64,000 nucleotides of DNA from Mannheimia haemolytica. Its GTDB lineage: Bacteria > Pseudomonadota > Gammaproteobacteria > Enterobacterales > Pasteurellaceae. Shown in pieces: positions 1,896 to 49,289 of this stretch (its first letter is position 1; every line of letters begins with the position of its first letter). A model generated the notes under the pieces. That model was not told where the DNA came from, made no database searches, and worked only from the letters and a program-made list of their open reading frames with translations. The stretch is taken from positions 1,984,001-2,048,000 of the forward strand of contig LR134495.1 of the NCBI GenBank assembly GCA_900638155.1, written 5' to 3'. The position numbers and the translations under genes are program-made.

Positions 1896-4800
1896 ATGAA
1901 TAAAATTTATCGCATTGTTTGGAACCATGCAAAACGAACTTGGATTGTTGCTTCTGAATTATCAAGAAGTGCTAATAAATCTAATGCAACAAATACATCA
2001 CTAACCACTAATATTATTAAACTTAGCACACTAAGTCTTGCGCTTTCTGCAGGTTTTGCAATTGCTGCAACCTATTCACCAACCTATGGGACCATACCAG
2101 ATAATAACCCACAAACATCTATCGCAATTGGTGATGGATCTAAAGTTAACTCAACACTAGTAAGTACAATAACAGGCTTAGAAGGAAATAGCGGTAAAGT
2201 TTCTACCGCATTAGGGTATAACACAACCGCGACAGCCGATTTTTCAACTGCATTAGGAGGCTTTGCTAACGCTAGTTTTGCTTCAACAGCTGTTGGTGGA
2301 CAAGCCACTGCCGATAAACGTTCCGTAGCAGTAGGGTACAATGCAACCGCAATGGGCTTACGTGAAGTTTTTATTGGCGATCATGCCGGATTAAATCACT
2401 CTAACAGCACAGAATACAATATTGGTATTGGTTATTCGGCTAGCTCTAATGTAACAGGAAACAATACGATTTCTATTGGTAATACTGCTGGAGACGGTAC
2501 TAGTGGTAGCCACAATATTGCAATTGGTACTTATGCTAATGCAAAACTAGCAGGACCTACTACAAATGTAACCAGTGATAATAATATCGCTATCGGTAAT
2601 TCCGCTCTTGCAAATGGTGTTAATAATTACAAAACTACAGCAGCAACAGGAGAAACGGTAATAGGAAAAGCAACTGCTGTAGGTAGTCATGCCAATGCAA
2701 CCGGCATTGTTAGCTCCGCCTATGGTGCTGAAGCTAACGCAACAGCTATTCACTCCACAGCAATTGGTTATGAAGCAAAGACTTCAGGCCATGGTGCAAC
2801 CTCATTAGGTTATTATGCAAATGCAACAGCAAATTTAACGACTGCTGTTGGTACTAGTGCAAGTGCAACCAACGATTATGCTTCTGCATTTGGCCGTGAA
2901 GCCAATGCAAGTGGAGGTTCAGCAACCGCTTTAGGCAATCGAGCTACTGCATCAGGCGCGGCTTCTGTTGCACTAGGGGTAAGCGCTAAAGCAACAAATC
3001 AACGCACAATTGCAATTGGAGAATCATCAAATGCTTCCGGCTTTAATGCAACCGCTATAGGTCGAAATGCCACTGCTGAACATACTGATTCGATAGCGCT
3101 AGGTAGCAACTCAGTTACAGCTATAGCCATACCAACTACAAATGCAACTGTAAATGGTATTACATATAGTGACTTTGCCGGAACAAATCCAATTGCTACA
3201 GTAAGTATTGGGGCGGAAGGCAAAGAGAGAACTATCACCAATGTTGCTGCAGGACGTATATCTTTAAGCTCTACAGATGCCATAAACGGTTCACAATTAT
3301 ATTTAACACAACAAGCTATAGGTAATGTTGCTGCAACAACCGCAAATATCTTAGGTGGTGGGGCAGCTGTTACTGAAAATGGAAATATCACTTTCCCAAC
3401 CTACGCTTTAGTGAATGGCACACCAGATGCAGATAAAGAAGGCAAACAAGGGAAATACACTACTGTTTCTGCAGCACTAAGCGCATTAAACACAGCGGTG
3501 ATCAGCCCGTTAACCTTTGCCGGTGATACAGGGACTAATTTTGAGCGCCATCTAGGTTCAACAGTCAAGTTCGAAGGCGGATCTACAGGCATATTAACCG
3601 AGAATAATATTGGTGTTGTAGCTGATGGCAATAGTACTTTAACCATAAAATTAGCAGAAAAAGTTAACTTAGGCGCTAATGGTTCATTAACAACAGGTGA
3701 TACCGTTGTTAACAATACAGGTATCACCATCGCTAACGGCGTTGCAGACAAACCGGTAAGTCTTACTAAATCTGGCTTAGATAATGGCGGTAATAAAATC
3801 GCCAATGTTGCCGCAGGCGATGTAGATACTGATGCGGTCAATGTCAGTCAACTCAAACAAGCTATCAGCAAATTTGCAACTCATTATGTTAGTATTTCAG
3901 ATGATGGCATTCAACGTGCTAACTATGATAATTCAGGCTCTAGCGGTGTTAATTCAATGGCTATCGGCGTTGCAACAAGTGCTAATGGTGAGCTGGCAAC
4001 CGCATTAGGCTCTGAAGCAGAAGCAAACGGTGAACGTACAACTGCAGTTGGTCCTCGCGCAACAGCTGATGGTATGAATGCAACTTCTATAGGCTACAAT
4101 GCGAATGCAAATGCAACAAATGCCCTAGCGGTTGGTTCTGCAGCCAATGCAAATGCTGATACCTCAACAGCTATTGGTACAGCTTCAACAGCGACAGCTA
4201 CCCGTGCAACTGCATTAGGCTCTAAATCTGAAGCTACCGGTGAAAATTCAACCGCTGTAGGTTATGAAGCAAGTTCAATCGGTGCAGGTTCTCTTGCTGC
4301 AGGCTATAACGCAAATGCTTCGGGTACACAGTCAACCGCTTTAGGTAACTCTGCTAATGCAGGTGGAATATGGTCAACTTCTGTGGGTAGAAATGCCAAT
4401 GCTACAGGTAGCTCTGCGATTGCTTTAGGTAATAGTGCAAATGCAGCCGGTGTAGCTTCTATTGCATTAGGTGTTTCATCACAAGCAACAACAACTGCTG
4501 CAGTGGCTCTTGGCCAAAATGCAAAAGCAACACACCAAGGTTCTGTTGCATTAGGTACTAACTCTGAAACAGTAGCCACAGTTGCAACAAAAAGTGCAAC
4601 GCTAAATGGCAATACATACACATTTGCAGGTACTACGCCAAGCTCAACTGTAAGTATTGGTTCTGTAGGCAATGAACGTACTTTAACGAATGTTGCAGCT
4701 GGTCGTATTTCGGACTCATCAACGGATGCCATCAACGGTTCACAACTTTATGCTGCTTACACCGAAATTGATGGTTTAAATACGAAAGTGGATGAGTTAA

Positions 4801-6005
4801 GTAATGGCGCACTTACTTTTGTAGATGATGCTGGTACTGAAATTGTTCGTAAATTAGGTGCTTCTCTGAATGTTAAAGGTGGAGCCGATGCAACCATATT
4901 GACTGATAATAATATCGGTGTAGTGGCAACAGATGCTAACACATTAACAGTTAAATTAACGAAAGACATTGATTTAACTCCTGCCGGCTCCGTAGCTGTT
5001 GGTAATTCAAAACTAAATAACAACGGCTTAACCATTAATAATGGCCCAAGTGTCACAATGACAGGTGTCGATGCTGGCAAATTAAAAATAACTAATGTAG
5101 CTGATGGTGATATTTCACCTATCTCAGCAGATGCAGTTAATGGCAGCCAACTTTACGATACGGCAAATACTATTGCTACCGCTTTAGGTGGTAATTCAAG
5201 TGTAAATGCAAATGGTGCTGTTTCAGCCCCAAGCTATACTGTGGTTGATGGCGTTCCTACAAATGAGGTTAGTAAAACGGTCAATAATGTAGGCTCTGCA
5301 ATTACTGCGTTAAATGATGCAGTAACCAGCCCACTAACATTTGCAGGTGATACCGGCACGCCATCTCAACGTAAATTAGGTTCTACTGTTACAGTAAAAG
5401 GTGGGATATCTAACGAATCACAACTAACTGATAATAATATCGGGGTTATTTCAAATGGTAATGGTTCATTAACGGTTAAATTAGCTAAAGATATTAAAGT
5501 TAATTCTGTCACAGCTCAAACAGTAACAGCTAACATTGCTGTAGCCGATACTGTTAAGACTGGTGATACAACCATTGATACTAATGGATTAACTATTGTA
5601 GGGGGACCGAGTATAACTAAAACAGGTATTAATGCAGCAGGAACAAAAGTGACTAACGTAAAAGCAGGAACTGAAGATACTGATGCAGTTAACTTTAGCC
5701 AATTAAAAGCAACAGAAAAAAATATCAATAATAAGATCAATAATATTGATTCAAAAGTAAACAAAGTTGATAAACGTTTACGCGCTGGTATTGCTGGTGC
5801 AACTGCAACCGCAGGTTTACCGCAAGCATATCTACCAGGTAAAAGTATGTTAGCAACGGCTGGAGGTACATACCGTAATGAAGCTGCAATCGCAGTAGGT
5901 TATTCTCGGATTTCAGATAACGGGAAGGTTATCTATAAATTAACTGGGAACAGCAATACCAGAGGCGACTTTGGTGGTAGTATTGGCATGGGTTATCAAT
6001 GGTAA
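1896..6005 (+). CDS. Trimeric autotransporter adhesin (YadA/Hia family)
   Basis: This 1369-residue surface adhesin (type Vc secretion) begins with an extended signal peptide region (MNKIYRIVWNHAKRTWIVASE), followed by a hydrophobic signal core ending near AGFAIAA. Two YadA-like head regions rich in A-I/L-G-x-x-A-x-A repeats span about residues 60-430 and 665-915. Each is closed by a neck motif of the type AGRIS-SSTDAINGSQLY (about 451 and 934). Three related stalk modules with TFAGDTGT...NNIGVV...LTVKL lie near 537, 970 and 1145. DAVNxSQLK connectors precede a short coiled coil and the YadA anchor (about 1293-1369, ending GMGYQW), which forms the 12-strand trimeric barrel. A ribosome-binding site AGGAG lies 7 bases before the ATG. 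The frame is intact. Ligand specificity cannot be read from the sequence. Confidence 0.93.
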   Translation: MNKIYRIVWNHAKRTWIVASELSRSANKSNATNTSLTTNIIKLSTLSLALSAGFAIAATYSPTYGTIPDNNPQTSIAIGDGSKVNSTLVSTITGLEGNSGKVSTALGYNTTATADFSTALGGFANASFASTAVGGQATADKRSVAVGYNATAMGLREVFIGDHAGLNHSNSTEYNIGIGYSASSNVTGNNTISIGNTAGDGTSGSHNIAIGTYANAKLAGPTTNVTSDNNIAIGNSALANGVNNYKTTAATGETVIGKATAVGSHANATGIVSSAYGAEANATAIHSTAIGYEAKTSGHGATSLGYYANATANLTTAVGTSASATNDYASAFGREANASGGSATALGNRATASGAASVALGVSAKATNQRTIAIGESSNASGFNATAIGRNATAEHTDSIALGSNSVTAIAIPTTNATVNGITYSDFAGTNPIATVSIGAEGKERTITNVAAGRISLSSTDAINGSQLYLTQQAIGNVAATTANILGGGAAVTENGNITFPTYALVNGTPDADKEGKQGKYTTVSAALSALNTAVISPLTFAGDTGTNFERHLGSTVKFEGGSTGILTENNIGVVADGNSTLTIKLAEKVNLGANGSLTTGDTVVNNTGITIANGVADKPVSLTKSGLDNGGNKIANVAAGDVDTDAVNVSQLKQAISKFATHYVSISDDGIQRANYDNSGSSGVNSMAIGVATSANGELATALGSEAEANGERTTAVGPRATADGMNATSIGYNANANATNALAVGSAANANADTSTAIGTASTATATRATALGSKSEATGENSTAVGYEASSIGAGSLAAGYNANASGTQSTALGNSANAGGIWSTSVGRNANATGSSAIALGNSANAAGVASIALGVSSQATTTAAVALGQNAKATHQGSVALGTNSETVATVATKSATLNGNTYTFAGTTPSSTVSIGSVGNERTLTNVAAGRISDSSTDAINGSQLYAAYTEIDGLNTKVDELSNGALTFVDDAGTEIVRKLGASLNVKGGADATILTDNNIGVVATDANTLTVKLTKDIDLTPAGSVAVGNSKLNNNGLTINNGPSVTMTGVDAGKLKITNVADGDISPISADAVNGSQLYDTANTIATALGGNSSVNANGAVSAPSYTVVDGVPTNEVSKTVNNVGSAITALNDAVTSPLTFAGDTGTPSQRKLGSTVTVKGGISNESQLTDNNIGVISNGNGSLTVKLAKDIKVNSVTAQTVTANIAVADTVKTGDTTIDTNGLTIVGGPSITKTGINAAGTKVTNVKAGTEDTDAVNFSQLKATEKNINNKINNIDSKVNKVDKRLRAGIAGATATAGLPQAYLPGKSMLATAGGTYRNEAAIAVGYSRISDNGKVIYKLTGNSNTRGDFGGSIGMGYQW

Positions 6006-6037
6006 TTTTCCAATAGAAAATTGATTTATTGCTGAAT

Positions 6038-6077
6038 AAAAAAGGTTTACAGAGTTTCTGATCTGTAAACCTTTTTT
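6038..6077. terminator. Bidirectional intrinsic terminator
   Basis: AAAAAAGGTTTACAGA pairs perfectly with TCTGTAAACCTTTTTT across an 8-base loop. It lies between the convergent adhesin and SLC13 genes. The A-run/T-run symmetry suits termination on both strands. Confidence 0.85.
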
Positions 6078-6094
6078 CTATAATTATCTATCAA

Positions 6095-7867
6095 TTATGG
6101 ATTAAAAGGGAAGAAAATCGGAATTAATACTATCCCTAAAATCCAGTAGATTACATTTAGCGGTAAACCAATTTTAATGAAATCGGTAAATTTATAACCA
6201 CCTGCACCATATACCATCGTGTTGGTTTGGTAACCCACGGGGGTCATAAAGCTGGTTGCAGCCGCAAACATTACGGCAATAATGAATGGGGAAGCATCTA
6301 CCTCTAACATTTTAGCGGTAGAAACCGCAATAGGCGTAAGCAACACGGCAGTCCCTGCATTACTCATAAATTCGGTTAACACCATTGTCAGTAAATATAA
6401 TACAGCTAACACCACTAAAGGCCCGAACTCCCCTACTTTACCAAGCGTGTTATCAACAATAAATTGCGCCGCCCCACTATTTGCCATCGCTTCACCTAAT
6501 GGCAGTAATCCAGCTAAGACTAAGATGATTTTCCAGTCAATAGATTGATAGGCTTCTTCAGCCGTTAAACAACCGGCAACACACATCGCAACTGCACCAA
6601 TCAAGGCGCTCACTGAAATTGAAATCCAGCCTAATGCTGCTGTTGCCACCACCGAAACCATTACCCCTAAAGCAAATTTGCTTTTCCACGACTCCTCAGT
6701 TTTGACTAAATCAGAGGATAACACAATAAAGTCTTTATCTTGGCGTAACGTATCCATATCCTCTTTTGGTAATGTGAGTAATAAAATATCCCCCATTTTA
6801 AAAGCAGTGGTGCGTAAACGCTCACGAATTACTTTACTTTGGCGTTGAATGCCTAACACCGTTGCATTTTTATTCCAACGCTGTTGTAAAATAGGAATAG
6901 TCCCTCCTATCCAACGAGAGATCGGAGAAATCATCACTTCAGCCACCATCAAGTCTTCATCCAGATTATCTTCATCATTCTCACGGCGTCCATACACAAC
7001 GTGGTGCAATCCATATTTTTCTCGCACTTTTGCTAAATTTTCCGATTCACCCCGCAACAATAAAATATCGTGTTTTTGTAATACTTGATGACTCGGTGTC
7101 GATAATCTTTCCCCATCACGCAGAACACCGATAGTAAATAGATTAAATTCTTCATTTAATCCTGATTCAAAGGTACTTTTGCCAATTAATACAGAGTCTT
7201 TATTTACTTTAAGTTCAGAAACATATTTTCCAAACCCCTCACCATCTTCAAGTTGCAAATGTGATTCGGGTAATAAGAAACGGCTGGTCACTAATAAATA
7301 GGCAACCCCAACCACTAAAAAAATAATCCCCAAGGGGGCAAATTCAAACATACCAAAACCGGAATGCCCTTGCTTTTGAGCGATTGCATTAACTAATAAA
7401 TTAGTGGAGGTACCGATCAGTGTACAAACACCTGCCATTTGAGAAGAAAATGATAATGGAATAAGGGCTTTGGAAGGAGCCATTTTTATATTCTGTGCTG
7501 CGGCAATCACAATCGGAATTAATACTGCAACCACTGCCGTATTATTCACAAAAGGAGAAACAGCAGCATTTACGCCACAGAGTACAAGCAAGAATAACCA
7601 AGGGGATTTTACCTTAGCAAGTAAACTGCCTACGCTATCTAAAGCCCCACTATTTTGTAAACCAGCAGCTAATACAAACATTGCGGTTACGGTTACAGTA
7701 GCTGAGTTTGAAAATCCACTTAGGGCGGATTTGGTATCAACTTGCCCCAATAATACTAATGAACACAGTACCAAAATAGCGACAGCATCCATTCGCATTT
7801 TTTCAGTTGCAAATAAAAATACGGCAATCCCAGTAACTGCCAATGTTGCAACAATATCCCAAGACAT
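6095..7867 (-). CDS. SLC13/DASS-type anion permease with two TrkA-C domains
   Basis: This 590-residue inner-membrane transporter of the divalent anion:Na+ symporter type resembles H. influenzae HI0608. Hydrophobic blocks flank a central soluble region (about residues 200-390) with two RCK_C/TrkA-C-like modules (VLIGKSTFES...DILLLRG and ...TVLGIQR...GDILLLTLP). The repeated family signatures NSATVTVTAMFVLAAG and NAGTAVLLTPIA are visible. I place the start at 7867 (MSWDIVATL) because AAGGAG lies 5 bases upstream; a longer in-frame reading to 7912 lacks this support. The substrate (sulfate, dicarboxylate or other) cannot be fixed from the sequence. It is transcribed away from rluB, separated from it by a short gap, and shares a terminator with the adhesin gene. 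Confidence 0.85.
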   Translation of the reverse strand: MSWDIVATLAVTGIAVFLFATEKMRMDAVAILVLCSLVLLGQVDTKSALSGFSNSATVTVTAMFVLAAGLQNSGALDSVGSLLAKVKSPWLFLLVLCGVNAAVSPFVNNTAVVAVLIPIVIAAAQNIKMAPSKALIPLSFSSQMAGVCTLIGTSTNLLVNAIAQKQGHSGFGMFEFAPLGIIFLVVGVAYLLVTSRFLLPESHLQLEDGEGFGKYVSELKVNKDSVLIGKSTFESGLNEEFNLFTIGVLRDGERLSTPSHQVLQKHDILLLRGESENLAKVREKYGLHHVVYGRRENDEDNLDEDLMVAEVMISPISRWIGGTIPILQQRWNKNATVLGIQRQSKVIRERLRTTAFKMGDILLLTLPKEDMDTLRQDKDFIVLSSDLVKTEESWKSKFALGVMVSVVATAALGWISISVSALIGAVAMCVAGCLTAEEAYQSIDWKIILVLAGLLPLGEAMANSGAAQFIVDNTLGKVGEFGPLVVLAVLYLLTMVLTEFMSNAGTAVLLTPIAVSTAKMLEVDASPFIIAVMFAAATSFMTPVGYQTNTMVYGAGGYKFTDFIKIGLPLNVIYWILGIVLIPIFFPFNP

Positions 7868-23774: not shown

Positions 23775-24578
23775 ATGTATAAGATCCTATTTTTATTCTC
23801 ACTCGTTATTTCTCAAACCGCACAAGCCGAACAATTCGTTTCGCTCAATTTGTGTAGCGACCGCCTGTTGCTGGAACTTGCCGAACCGCATCAAATTCGG
23901 GCGATGTCGCCCTATTCCCAAAAGCCGTTGATGATGTTAGATAAACTGAACACGGACAAGCCCACCGTTGAAGCTGAACTCACTGCACTGTTGCCCTATG
24001 CAGACAGCACCATTTTGCTGAATGAAACTTTCTACCCACAACTCACTGCACGTCTGAAACAGCTTGGCTTTAAGTTAGTCGCATTAAACGACAGCCCACA
24101 AACGCCCGAACAGCTTTTCGCCCTGATTTTACAACTGGGCGAGCTAACCCAAAATCAAGCCAAAGCGGAAAAGCTGGTGGAACGTCTGCGTTTGCAAAAA
24201 ATTCCGCCAAAACAACCGCTTGCTGAAACTTTAATTCTAAGCGAAACGGGTATGATCGAACCGCATTTTCCGCAATATCAAACGTTGTTGGATCTTCTCG
24301 GTCTATCGCCATTAAAAAGCGACCTCACGCCACAGAATTTCTCGCTGGAAAAACTACTGTTAGCCCAACCCAAACAGTTATTGTTCCTCACCGATAACCA
24401 AAGCTACAACAACCAAGCCGAACTGCTCAAACACCCTGCATTACAAAAAATATGGCAAAAAATGAGCCAAAATCCACCGCTTGTCCTGTCGATGAAATAC
24501 ACCTATTGTTTCGACCACGGGGTTTGGCAGGGGGTGAAATTGGTAGAGCAACAATTAAGGCACACGGCTACGCCTTAA
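23775..24578 (+). CDS. ABC transporter periplasmic binding protein (BtuF/FecB type)
   Basis: This ~267-residue periplasmic protein has a signal peptide (MYKILFLFSLVISQTAQA, then EQFVSLNLCSDRLLLELAEP). The VSLNLCSDRLLLELA opening and the LTALLPYADSTILLNETFYPQ block are typical of class III binding proteins for cobalamins or iron chelates. I start it at ATG 23775; the frame is open upstream, but the earlier ATG at 23745 is inside the REPIN and would spoil the signal peptide. No good ribosome-binding site precedes 23775, perhaps because the REPIN inserted there. It is preceded by the BtuB-like receptor, and its last 11 bases overlap the convergent antitoxin gene. Ligand by context: corrinoid. 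Confidence 0.75.
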   Translation: MYKILFLFSLVISQTAQAEQFVSLNLCSDRLLLELAEPHQIRAMSPYSQKPLMMLDKLNTDKPTVEAELTALLPYADSTILLNETFYPQLTARLKQLGFKLVALNDSPQTPEQLFALILQLGELTQNQAKAEKLVERLRLQKIPPKQPLAETLILSETGMIEPHFPQYQTLLDLLGLSPLKSDLTPQNFSLEKLLLAQPKQLLFLTDNQSYNNQAELLKHPALQKIWQKMSQNPPLVLSMKYTYCFDHGVWQGVKLVEQQLRHTATP

Positions 24579-24891
24579 CGACCGACAATTCCAAATTTAG
24601 TGCGCTAATAATTTTGCGGATCGTCTCAAAACGGGGCTTACTGCTGGAAAGGCTTTGATACAAACTTTCACGCCCGATCCCTGCTTTTTTCGCTAACTCA
24701 TTCATTCCTTTCGCTCGTGCCACGGTATTCAATGCTTGAATAAACTCCTCGTCCGTGCCGTCTTTCAATGTTTCCGCCAAATAAAGGGCGATTAGCTCGT
24801 CATTGGTGAGGTATTCGGCGGCATCAAAAGGTTGAATGCCAAATTTTTCACGAGTGGCTTGTGGAATCGGGTCATCGTATAATTCGTTCAT
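24568..24891 (-). CDS. Antitoxin of a RelE/HigB-type toxin-antitoxin pair
   Basis: This 107-residue protein resembles the 'addiction module antidote' family: an N-terminal PFDAAEYLTNDELIALYLAETL segment that binds the toxin, then a helix-turn-helix (GMNELAKKAGIGRESLYQSLSSSKPRFETIRKIISALN) for operator binding. ATG 24891 follows AGGAG inside the toxin 3' end; longer readings upstream run through the toxin gene in another frame. Toxin precedes antitoxin, as in higBA. Its stop overlaps the 3' end of the binding-protein gene on the opposite strand. The pair sits between two parts of an uptake cluster. Confidence 0.85.
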   Translation of the reverse strand: MNELYDDPIPQATREKFGIQPFDAAEYLTNDELIALYLAETLKDGTDEEFIQALNTVARAKGMNELAKKAGIGRESLYQSLSSSKPRFETIRKIISALNLELSVVKA

Positions 24892-25210
24892 TCTTTTTCT
24901 CCTGTTCTGCCATATGCTGTTTAATTTCTGCCCATAGCATTTTAGCTTTATCAATATCAGCTTGTTGTGTTCCTTTATGTCCGCCATTTAGTAGTATATA
25001 AATAATGCTACCTTTTTGCGCATAGTAAAGGCGATAACCTTTGCTGACGTTTAGCCTCATTTCGGAAATTCCTTCTGCGATATATTTGGTATCGCCAAAA
25101 TTTCCGCTTTCGGCACGTTCAATACGTCTTGCAATGGTCACCACAGCAAGTGGATCTTTTAAATTTTCAAGCCATTGGTCGAAAATTTCAGTGCGTTCAA
25201 TATGGTACAT
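24872..25210 (-). CDS. RelE/ParE-superfamily toxin (HigB-like addiction module killer)
   Basis: This 112-residue protein starts at 25210 (MYHIERTEIFDQWLENLKDP) behind a very strong GGAGG. Blocks matching the phage-derived 'addiction module killer' group are VVTIARRIERAESGNFGDTKYIAEGISEMRLNVSKGYRLYY and IIYILLNGGHKGTQQADIDKAKMLW. Members of this fold are usually ribosome-dependent mRNA endonucleases. It overlaps the antitoxin start by 20 bases, so the two are translationally coupled. An upstream in-frame Met at 25297 has no support. The promoter region lies between it and the divergent permease gene. Confidence 0.87.
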   Translation of the reverse strand: MYHIERTEIFDQWLENLKDPLAVVTIARRIERAESGNFGDTKYIAEGISEMRLNVSKGYRLYYAQKGSIIYILLNGGHKGTQQADIDKAKMLWAEIKQHMAEQEKKNERIIR

Positions 25211-25355
25211 TCTACCTCCAATCTGTAATGTTTTAAATACAAAACTTAGGCTGATTGAAGGAATATAGCAAAGCCTGTCGTGGGTTACATTCGGCAAACG
25301 CTAGTTTTTCGATGGTGATCGCAAAAATAGCGTTTTCAGCTTGACTTTGGCGCTA

Positions 25356-27143: not shown

Positions 27144-27421
27144 GGGAAATTTACTTGGCAGAGATTCTTTCAGTTTCATTAAAATTAAATCCCATTCCGA
27201 CACAACATTTACCTCAACAGATTGTTTAACCGATTTTGAGTGAGGTGGAGAGGGAGTTGGTTGTAGTAAATGGATAGAGGGGAACAAGCGGTCAGTTTTG
27301 CGGGGAAATTTGCAAAGTTTTGGGAGTAGAGAATTTGTTTATCATTAAATTGACATTTACAAACAGCTTTATCTAAACTTGTAATCAGGCTCAAACTGGA
27401 ATAGAACTTTTGGAGACAAAA
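27094..27421. other. Intergenic region before the HD/ATPase gene
   Basis: Non-coding stretch of about 330 bases. It holds the second TTGGAAGT palindrome, one USS copy (ACAAGCGGTCAG near 27283) and the GGAG ribosome-binding site at 27412. A short reverse-strand ORF here has no gene-like features. No convincing promoter was assigned. Confidence 0.5.
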
Positions 27422-30265
27422 ATGAATACTCAATTAAATAGTCTAGAGCAATACTTTGAACAAGCTTGTGGACAACATCCACAACTACAATATCTTCGGT
27501 CACAATGGGGCTTTGATAAAGAGCTAATTAGTAAAGCTCTCCAAAATGTAGGACATATTTTCCCACACTATAGTCGTCATGATGTATCACACTCAAAGCA
27601 GATTATTATCAATATTGAACGATTATTAGGAGATAAAATTCAATATTTGACAGCCACAGATATGTGGCTGATACTTGAGGCAGCATATTCACATGATATA
27701 GGAATGGTCATCACTCAAAAACAAATTGAAGATATGAATTCCACTGCATTCAATGATTTTGTTCAGAAATTAGCGTTAGATGAAAAAAATGAATTATCTT
27801 CTTTTGCAAAAAAATGGGTAAAAGATGAAGCAGTTTTACCACAAAAAGCAAAAGCACATGACTTTTTTCATCAATATATCCAGCTATTAGCAGAATGGTA
27901 TCGTCGTAAACACCCTATAAATTCAGCAAATATTGTTATAAATCCACGGGAAGAAATAGGATTAGACTCCTCAAGAAATGAGCTTATTCCAAAACGTTTG
28001 TTTAATATTTTATCTAAAATTTGTAAAGCTCACGGAGATAGCTTTGAGCAAATGATAAAGGAGCTTCCTAAAGCAGAGGCTGGATTAGGAACGGAAGATT
28101 GCCACCCATTATATGTTGCATGTCTGCTTAGAATGGGGGATTTACTTGATATTGATGATAACCGATTCTGCCCAGTTATGATGGCAATGTGCAGTCATAA
28201 TTTACCTTCATTAAGCCAAGCCCATAGAGATAAACATCTTTCAGTTCAACACTTCCGTTTAGATTCGGAACGAATTGAAGTTGAATGTGCCTGCCCAAAT
28301 CCAGAATCCTATGAAGCAGCATTTGATTGGTTCGAATGGTTGAAAATCGAATACCATAATCAGACTCAGCATTGGGATCAAATTGTACCTAGCAAACAAC
28401 TCGGTAGACTCCCAACCTTGATGAATCCAAAGGTAACTATTCAACAACCATATATTATTATTGATGAAGGAAAAAAACCATTTTTTCAGATCAATAAAGA
28501 AAGTATGCTACATCTTATAAGAGGAACTGGGTTATATAGTTCCCGATTTGATAGTATACGTGAGATTTTACAAAATGCCGTTGATTCTACATTATACCGA
28601 ATCTGGATTGATCATAAAAATAGATACGATTTTTATGAGTTGTCTCCTATTGATAAAAGATATTTAGAACTGGTAAATAAATATAAAGTAGATGTTTCTT
28701 TTGAACCCGAAGATATAAATGGTGATATATGGGTTTTAAATGTTAGAGATAATGGAATTGGAATAAGTTTAAATGACCTTCGGTATATGCTAAATGTTGG
28801 TAGCACAAAGTATAATGATGAAAAGCAGAAAAGACTAAGTGAAATGCCAATGTGGTTTAGACCTTCTGGGGCTTTTGGTATCGGTTTACAAAGTGCATTC
28901 TTACTTGCAGATGAGTTTTATATTACTAGTTATTCTATTATAGATAAAAAATATTTGAAAATTCATTTTCATAAACATAAAGGGGTTACTATTGAAGAAC
29001 TTAATCATAGTGATGATATTCATTATGGCTGTAATTTTAATGTTAAGATTAAGGTCGAAAAGAACCCTCAAAGATATACTTACTCTCTTGAAAATGATAT
29101 GTGGAAAGAGATTGCTAATGGGTTAAAAGAATATGATATAACTAGCTCTGGTTTTAGATTAGATTTCATAGAAGTTAACACAATTATTGGAAAAATAATG
29201 GAGTTTAATATTAATTCCCCAGTAAAAGTTAATGTAAAAAAGTATGGATTAAACATTACACACAATAAAGATGATTTCTATTTTTATGAAAATATAATCT
29301 TATCTAATTTATCATTTGGAGATTTTAACGGAAGAGTAAACTCTTTTTTTAGAGGGCAGAGATTTTCTGATTTATCATTATCTGTTCCAGGACTACATTG
29401 TAATGTAGATGTTTACTCGGAAACTTCAGATAAATTCCTTACTTATAATCGTGAAAAAATCTTACCAGAGGTAAGAGAGGTTATACGTGAAAAGGTATAT
29501 AATGTTATTTGCAAATATATATCTGACAAAATTGACTGTATCCCTGAGCCCGAGAAGCCATTTGCAGCGTTAAGTTATTTTTTATTATCTAAAAAAGCAG
29601 AAAATAAATTTTCTGAACTTATTGGAAGAATAAAAATTAATAAATCATCTACTCTGGAAAAACTTATAAATGATATAGTTGTTCATAAGAAAAAAATAGT
29701 TTTTATTGATCGAGATTATGACAAAAAATTTCAAAATAAACAAACAATTAAGAATGCTACTAAAAAATTCATATTAAGTTACCTTTTATGGTATATCACA
29801 AAAAAGGATATGTTTTATAGTATTCATAAAGAAATACATAAGAAAGATTCTTATGGTAATCATGTTGAAAAATTTATATATACATTTGAAGATGATGATG
29901 CTTTTCCAATATCTAATGATTACTTTTTAACTATTATTAGAAATAAGATTTCACATAATGATAGAGGTTGCAGGCTATTTTTTCCAGCATGGGGGAAATT
30001 TAGAGAGCTATCTATAAGAGATGATAGATTTTCTTATGGTGATTTTTTTCATTATATTTCATATTCTACAGATTATATGATATTACCAATAGATTTCAGG
30101 TTTGAGATGAATGAACAAAGATTCTTTGATGATTCTGAAAATCTAGTCACTTGGATATATAACAACAAGAAACAGGAAAATGTTAGTTTCGAAAAAATAA
30201 AGGAGTTACTTCAGGAGTTAATTATAGAACTGAAGGAAATATTATCTATTAGTGCCTATAAGTAA
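27422..30265 (+). CDS. HD-domain plus Hsp90-like (GHKL) ATPase protein, candidate conflict system
   Basis: This 947-residue protein has no signal peptide. Residues 1-310 look like an HD phosphohydrolase: His53-Asp54, His57, His91-Asp92 (AAYSHDIGM), His204-Asp206 and Asp240 (LLRMGDLLDIDD). Residues 360-560 are a GHKL/Hsp90-type ATPase: N box Glu381-Asn385 (IREILQNAVDST), G1 box VRDNGIGIS (Asp443) and G2 box GAFGIGLQSAFLLAD. Residues 560-947 are not recognised. ATG 27422 follows GGAG at 6 bases; a TTG at 27410 is the alternative. The region from about 28600 on is visibly more A/T-rich than its neighbours, suggesting transfer. It is a lone gene between the ABC ATPase and metH. A defence or stress role is inference. 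Confidence 0.8.
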   Translation: MNTQLNSLEQYFEQACGQHPQLQYLRSQWGFDKELISKALQNVGHIFPHYSRHDVSHSKQIIINIERLLGDKIQYLTATDMWLILEAAYSHDIGMVITQKQIEDMNSTAFNDFVQKLALDEKNELSSFAKKWVKDEAVLPQKAKAHDFFHQYIQLLAEWYRRKHPINSANIVINPREEIGLDSSRNELIPKRLFNILSKICKAHGDSFEQMIKELPKAEAGLGTEDCHPLYVACLLRMGDLLDIDDNRFCPVMMAMCSHNLPSLSQAHRDKHLSVQHFRLDSERIEVECACPNPESYEAAFDWFEWLKIEYHNQTQHWDQIVPSKQLGRLPTLMNPKVTIQQPYIIIDEGKKPFFQINKESMLHLIRGTGLYSSRFDSIREILQNAVDSTLYRIWIDHKNRYDFYELSPIDKRYLELVNKYKVDVSFEPEDINGDIWVLNVRDNGIGISLNDLRYMLNVGSTKYNDEKQKRLSEMPMWFRPSGAFGIGLQSAFLLADEFYITSYSIIDKKYLKIHFHKHKGVTIEELNHSDDIHYGCNFNVKIKVEKNPQRYTYSLENDMWKEIANGLKEYDITSSGFRLDFIEVNTIIGKIMEFNINSPVKVNVKKYGLNITHNKDDFYFYENIILSNLSFGDFNGRVNSFFRGQRFSDLSLSVPGLHCNVDVYSETSDKFLTYNREKILPEVREVIREKVYNVICKYISDKIDCIPEPEKPFAALSYFLLSKKAENKFSELIGRIKINKSSTLEKLINDIVVHKKKIVFIDRDYDKKFQNKQTIKNATKKFILSYLLWYITKKDMFYSIHKEIHKKDSYGNHVEKFIYTFEDDDAFPISNDYFLTIIRNKISHNDRGCRLFFPAWGKFRELSIRDDRFSYGDFFHYISYSTDYMILPIDFRFEMNEQRFFDDSENLVTWIYNNKKQENVSFEKIKELLQELIIELKEILSISAYK

Positions 30266-30275
30266 TAAAATAAAT

Positions 30276-30298
30276 GGCGGGTTAAAACCCGCCACTAC
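30276..30298 (-). repeat. REP-like hairpin with 5' GTAG (minus strand)
   Basis: Palindrome GGCGGGTTAAAACCCGCC followed by ACTAC. Its reverse complement is identical over 23 bases to the element after trpD (13549-13571). It sits between the convergent HD/ATPase and metH genes and may terminate both. Confidence 0.78.
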
Positions 30299-49146: not shown

Positions 49147-49263
49147 AACCGCTTGCGGCATAAATGCTACAAGCGGTTGATTATTACTCACAAAATTGTT
49201 TCCAATTTTGTTCGCTCCTACGGAGCCGTTGGCAAAGCCAACGCTCAAAACGCAATGCGTTTT
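49147..49263. repeat. Four consecutive hairpins downstream of pflB
   Basis: In order: AACCGCTTG/CAAGCGGTT (49147-49178, USS arms), ACAAAATTG/CAATTTTGT (49190-49211), GAGC-c-GTTGGC/GCCAACGCTC (49223-49246) and AAAACGC/GCGTTTT (49247-49263). They separate pflB from the RhuM gene. Confidence 0.7.
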
Positions 49264-49289
49264 GTGGCTAAAAGTTTTGTAAATTGTAA

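Follow-up and report, generated by a model that had tools for sequence, protein, structure and literature searches.

An HD-CE/Hsp90-like ATPase protein from a variable cargo slot of Mannheimia haemolytica is a probable single-gene defence protein

What purpose is served by a protein in which an HD domain is joined to an Hsp90-like ATPase, and does it belong to the defences of the cell? The question is raised by one gene in a 64,000-nucleotide stretch of the Mannheimia haemolytica genome (contig LR134495.1, positions 1,984,001 to 2,048,000; hereafter the window), where it lies between an open reading frame (ORF) for an ABC-transporter ATPase and metH, a MetH-like ORF. An earlier note on this DNA had presented it as a candidate conflict or stress system. 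The gene is a single intact ORF of 947 amino acids with no internal stop, as the note had correctly placed and measured it, and its ATG start is preceded by GGAG (read by eye). Its G+C content is 30.1%, tied with the minimum of 306 sliding windows of the same length, and the regions flanking it have 48.1% and 49.8%; the base composition of the gene is thus foreign. The gene is accessory in each group sampled, and it fills a variable cargo slot beside metH. On these grounds it is probably a defence gene that arrived by horizontal transfer and acts alone against phages (or mobile elements), and in its product an HD hydrolase effector would be gated by an Hsp90-type clamp.

The N-terminal part of the protein was assigned by Pfam to the HD-CE family (PF24391), above its curated cut-off (185.7 bits versus 27; E 1.8e-54), over residues 47–312 and profile positions 1–262 of 263. 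Conservation was assessed in an alignment of 39 sequences comprising the window protein and 38 genome loci, some of them truncated. Residues H53, H57, H91, D92, H164, H204, H228, D240, D243 and R248 are invariant in all 39. Among the HD motifs previously proposed, H53, the H91-D92 doublet and D240 held, but "His53-Asp54" belongs to an H-[DN]-x-x-H motif: 21 sequences have D and 18 have N at position 54, whereas H91 and D92 never vary, so that the HD doublet is H91-D92. The H-[DN]-x-x-H motif is likened to the general-acid HNxxH signature of cyclic-nucleotide phosphodiesterases. The ligand pattern of the HD superfamily, H...HD...D, is kept (H57, H91, D92 and D240, plus H164 and H204), and from the sequence the conserved histidines and aspartates would be expected to bind metal. 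A sequence search of the HD region against the PDB gave no match. Fold comparison placed Ppx/GppA and cyclic-nucleotide phosphodiesterases nearest, all of them enzymes acting on signalling or stress nucleotides.

Behind the HD-CE domain, HATPase_c_3 (PF13589) matched residues 378–520 at 26.3 bits, just above its cut-off of 25. The profile matches listed include HtpG, Grp94 and TRAP1 (best E 9.3e-9), and hhalign to the HtpG of the same genome, the product of a separate htpG gene, gave 95.6% over residues 353–544. In the 38 of 39 aligned sequences that reach this far, R380, E381, Q384, N385, D388, D443, G445, G447, F485, G486 and G488 are kept throughout and G483 in 37. Profile matches and conserved residues thus bear out the GHKL ATPase with intact N, G1 and G2 boxes that had been read from the sequence. 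The best NCBIfam match of the whole protein was an HSP90-family model, far under its cut-off. About 390 residues had been left as unrecognised; of these, residues 740–947, considered as a possible Hsp90 C-terminal dimerisation domain, remain without an assigned fold, lying outside the matched range in nearly all the fold matches listed, but residues ~545–738 are predicted to fold like an Hsp90 middle domain. This domain of Hsp90 carries a catalytic arginine, and R677 is conserved in the sequences reaching it, within a motif that resembles the NVSRE of HtpG when compared by eye. By fold, the model thus contains a complete Hsp90 N-terminal plus middle module. Total length varies from ~940 to 1085 amino acids among untruncated homologues.

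The observation is not a matter of chance: of the 7997 candidates scored, 990 were homologues at E ≤ 1e-3. In the 120 listed, identities go down to 41%; the closest named one is from Mannheimia haemolytica (88%), followed in order by Pasteurella sp., Actinobacillus equuli, Gallibacterium, Acinetobacter and Pseudomonas. PF24391 and PF13589 occur together in 112 of the 120 and PF24391 alone in 8. Only one of 140 Pasteurellaceae species genomes, the window's own, carries the gene, and it is found in further strains of the family outside that sample. Its presence in 1 of 140 family genomes therefore indicates that it varies between strains or species, and a core housekeeping gene common to all Pasteurellaceae, which the earlier note had named as a refutation of its proposal, was rejected on the same count. 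Strong matches were obtained in 14 of 105 genomes of a Psychrobacter set (two distant matches being set aside) and in 9 of 119 of an Acinetobacter set, where 30 of the 39 matching genomes gave weak matches to frames of ~638–671 amino acids, not counted because their size is that of HtpG-like proteins. Of 369 genomes from across the class, five had an HD-CE match over the cut-off (G000, G726, G551, G409 and G398); the ATPase part was also matched by frames in G726, G551 and G409, and G398 gave a short HD match only. A DNA-level search for E. coli copies gave no match, which says little at its sensitivity of 65–70% DNA. The genome behind locus L017 (G154 C1 278787–287704) holds a second, divergent HD/ATPase relative ~4.5 kb from the first, on the opposite strand.

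Comparison with congeneric genomes defined the slot. In G093, whose MetH is 99% identical, identity to the window is 93.6% in the left flank, as far as position 27326, and 95.1% in the right flank, from 30276 onward, and between the same junctions the gene is replaced by a 667-amino acid N6-methylase/HSDR_N fusion, two HsdS and a 186-amino acid unassigned protein. The cargo is a Mrr_cat endonuclease plus a 207-amino acid unassigned protein in G091 and a Trypsin_2 (trypsin-like peptidase) protein in G092, two genomes in which the metH side and the element at 27161–27324 are also conserved; the other three congeners gave no MetH match. The gene, previously called lone, has indeed no adjacent partner, but its site is a variable cargo slot. 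Genes upstream of the left-edge element vary: the window and G093 have ABC-transporter genes there, G092 encodes a SEC-C-type protein, and G091 has the counterpart of that protein. The element holds the sequence ACAAGCGGTC, with one mismatch in G092. An inverted copy is present in three relatives and absent from the window, and the insert therefore begins at that point. ACAAGCGGTC, which resembles a DNA uptake signal, occurs at 14 sites in the window versus 0.05 expected, none of them inside the gene, and slot cargo may be exchanged through natural transformation.

Other genes in and around this slot were recorded. At locus L056 the cargo is the trypsin-like peptidase (6036–6902, minus strand), and across the conserved element from it lies a 721-amino acid SEC-C protein (3246–5411, plus strand); both could be conflict genes. 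The 186-amino acid (L055 2020–2580, minus strand) and 207-amino acid (L057 7040–7663, minus strand) unassigned proteins stand alongside the restriction genes of the slot. In the window, a toxin–antitoxin-like pair at 24568–25297 (minus strand), ~2 kb upstream of the slot, matches the dnstrm_HI1420 antidote protein (E 2.1e-30), and has a second member that resembles Gp49 but scores below the Pfam cut-off (19.9 versus 23.9 bits).

A second slot was found in Acinetobacter, where eight long-form loci were available and seven could be oriented (L027 was left out). In six of the seven, the gene comes immediately after a 390-amino acid ORF, at its 3' end, and in L025 two ORFs, one transposase-like, stand between them; the 390-amino acid ORF and its neighbour are presumably fadA/fadB (FadA-like). 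The same site was retrieved from 20 other genomes, one of the 20 loci, L113, representing a further copy of the ORF located elsewhere, and slot proteins were scanned at 7 of these 20 loci (L103, L109, L111, L112, L113, L114 and L116). Defence genes occupied the slot in 3 of the 20 other species: L109 has a retron I-C RT-Toprim, L111 the B and C proteins of PD-Lambda-2, and L114 a SIR2 protein, PDC-S25. Scanned proteins of L103, L112, L113 and L116 matched no PADLOC family. At L025 (12532–13866, plus strand) a transposase-like gene immediately follows the homologue, which is shortened to 818 amino acids.

Elsewhere, seven loci supplied ten large flanking proteins for individual scans at E ≤ 1e-20. 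The Vogesella homologue (L003, 45%) has PDC-S06 on one side and SIR2 plus HerA on the other, and the L007 homologue adjoins a type III restriction enzyme gene; six flanking proteins (two of L005 and one each of L009, L013, L014 and L039) gave no match at this threshold. Partial homologues were present in six plasmid records, none covering 80% of the protein, and the neighbourhoods of four were viewed (H3 and H6 were left out). Flanking genes encode AAA, UvrD and an integrase in Pantoea, recombinases, an integrase and AbiEii in Hymenobacter, and an Abi-family protein in Lachnospira eligens; on the Aliarcobacter plasmid, Shedu and a specificity subunit flank a weak split match. The places shared with known defence genes are thus two slots and one island.

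The conflict or defence role is supported by patchy distribution, by foreign composition and by cargo slots shared with restriction genes in congeneric genomes and with retron, PD-Lambda-2 and SIR2 genes in Acinetobacter. Set against this, a pooled test gave no clean enrichment: the PADLOC families counted in the flanks (151 and 12) did not clearly exceed those of random regions (37 and 61, with one CRISPR I-C locus among the random-region families). This test compared 165 target with 164 control ORFs at 28 of 38 loci, L011, L019, L020, L021, L027, L029, L032, L033, L035 and L037 being dropped for short contigs or for having no control region. No adjacent gene recurred as a partner across genera in the 38 flanks. 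More distant ORF families were common to two to four genera, the largest with 9 ORFs in four genera at scattered distances and another with 7 ORFs in two; these were not taken to be partners.

The simplest reading of the protein as a defence system unites receptor and effector in one molecule. The HD-CE domain would be the effector, a metal-dependent phosphohydrolase or phosphodiesterase acting on a nucleotide, a second messenger or a nucleic acid. The Hsp90 N-terminal plus middle module would work as a clamp driven by ATP, whose binding would bring about dimerisation and a change of shape; the clamp would restrain the HD site as long as the cell is healthy and free it once infection is sensed, either by the C-terminal 200 residues or by the clamp itself. 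ATPase-gated nucleotide hydrolysis, already suggested in the earlier note, may be the outcome. Activity of the HD domain and its role as effector, its gating by the clamp in response to a trigger, and the resulting phage resistance are inferred.

The same architecture could instead belong to an accessory chaperone or stress protein, its clamp remodelling or protecting clients and its HD domain hydrolysing a second messenger in a regulatory role, so that the gene would be niche cargo unrelated to immunity. The complete Hsp90 module seen by fold agrees with this, as does the proximity of the HD fold to Ppx/GppA and cyclic-nucleotide phosphodiesterases; it is nevertheless unlikely, given a very patchy distribution, a genome already provided with its own htpG, and restriction, retron, PD-Lambda-2 and SIR2 genes in the corresponding slots of relatives. 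Distinctly unlikely is a system against plasmids or transformation, in which an HD nuclease or nucleotidase would block incoming DNA and the clamp would load on DNA like GHKL proteins of the topoisomerase VI or MutL type: Hsp90 matches rank higher by fold and fill the sequence matches listed, and Pfam recognised no DNA-binding domain in the 947-residue protein. That the gene merely passes through these slots while serving a mobile element (in maintenance, anti-defence or superinfection exclusion) is highly improbable, for although integrases or recombinases lie near two plasmid-borne homologues, the L025 copy adjoins a transposase-like gene and phage and viral-contig collections each yielded a partial homologue, the two collections come down to a single record among the 50,697 of phages (53% covered) and one confirmed contig in a pattern-limited scan, and the neighbours of the window copy are the ABC-transporter ATPase ORF and metH; of the Acinetobacter neighbours, a minority entered the scan. 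A phage-borne gene was rejected on the same two records.

The features of the locus are collected in Table 1. The promoter-like site should be read against the 18 consensus sites found in the region, where 17.3 are expected. Elsewhere in the window, positions 49173–49273 (minus strand) match Rfam AaHKsRNA22, an Aggregatibacter small RNA.

Table 1. Coordinates of the gene, its domains and the edges of its slot (window positions unless a locus is named)
Feature	Position	Strand	Basis or remark
HD-CE/Hsp90-like ATPase protein	27422..30265	+	ORF, domain matches, homologues
HD-CE domain (PF24391), residues 47-312	27560..28357	+	invariant H53, H57, H91-D92, H164, H204, H228, D240
Hsp90-type GHKL ATP-binding domain, ~residues 356-544	28487..29053	+	PF13589, profile matches, hhalign, conserved boxes
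Hsp90-type middle domain (predicted), ~residues 545-738	29054..29635	+	FRGQ (643-646), YNR677E motif
C-terminal region, ~residues 739-947	29636..30262	+	without assigned fold
Left edge of cargo slot, ~165-base conserved element	27161..27326	+	common to four congeneric genomes; holds ACAAGCGGTC at 27284-27293
Left-edge element in relatives	L055 1796-2010; L056 5735-5950; L057 5903-6115		
Promoter-like TTGACA-18-TAAACT	27350..27379	+	consensus match only; lies within the cargo leader
Terminator-like hairpin after metH, right slot edge	30273..30296	-	G093 and G091 have a similar sequence, G092 does not

The gene is accessory and probably of a phage-defence type, and a literature search, with bioRxiv and most subscription journals outside it, found no account of an HD-CE/Hsp90-like defence protein or of its tested function. 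Both of its domains are known to Pfam (PF24391 and PF13589), where the HD-CE family is named without a function. That the protein matches no named defence system was confirmed with PADLOC-DB 2.0.0, whose one match was to the C-terminal part of RT_UG24, of the DRT class: residues 49–283 align with profile positions 698–911 of 1036 (E 2.9e-13). The two appear to have the HD-CE region in common, which fits the HD domain as an exchangeable effector. The window protein, however, has an Hsp90 clamp in place of a reverse transcriptase domain (Pfam, PADLOC); since only positions 698–911 were matched and Pfam gave no RVT match, membership of DRT UG24 was rejected.

The gene would be a variant of known HD-effector systems. 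Clover and the phage-defence dGTPases likewise use an HD-domain effector against phages, and in Clover, as far as the accessible part of the report goes, CloA is kept off until an infection cue and has the nucleotidyltransferase CloB as partner (PMC12265719), a precedent for an HD effector gated by an infection cue. CloA is described there as an HD domain with a helical bundle, the accessible text making no mention of an Hsp90 module (PMC12265719). The window gene differs from Clover in having ABC-transporter and MetH-like ORFs as neighbours and no adjacent nucleotidyltransferase, and from the dGTPases in that its product matched no dGTPase family in Pfam or NCBIfam. With HtpG, TRAP1 and Grp94 the protein shares, by profile and fold, the N-terminal ATPase and the middle domain; unlike them, it has an HD enzyme fused in front and an unmatched C-terminal part, and it is accessory, not core. 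A chaperone in phage sensing has a precedent in DnaJ with bNACHT25, for which htpG was not needed, and the available portion of the same source describes Hsp90 in plant and mammalian immunity as chaperoning immune receptors rather than forming part of one (PMC12169576).

Among 50 listed matches of the full model to predicted viral structures, 20 were named RIIA (E 2.7e-8 to 3.2e-5), which indicates a related Hsp90-like fold; TM-scores by query were only ~0.2, reflecting the shared Hsp90-like part, and the two best rows were unnamed or uncharacterised proteins. RIIA classically protects from prophage-encoded exclusion. It is conceivable, but very unlikely, that the protein is a complete immune receptor with the Hsp90-type clamp itself as infection sensor. 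RIIA, phage GHKL ATPases or clients disturbed by phage would then enter mixed dimers, if clamps can form these, or open the clamp, and would thereby activate or silence the HD phosphodiesterase; on such receptors RIIA could act either as a trigger or as a decoy inhibitor. The resemblance may link this broad but patchy family to the old question of the role of RIIA. Should the probable reading as a defence protein be right, the family would add a class of single-gene defence whose metal-dependent hydrolase is under the control of an Hsp90 ATPase module.
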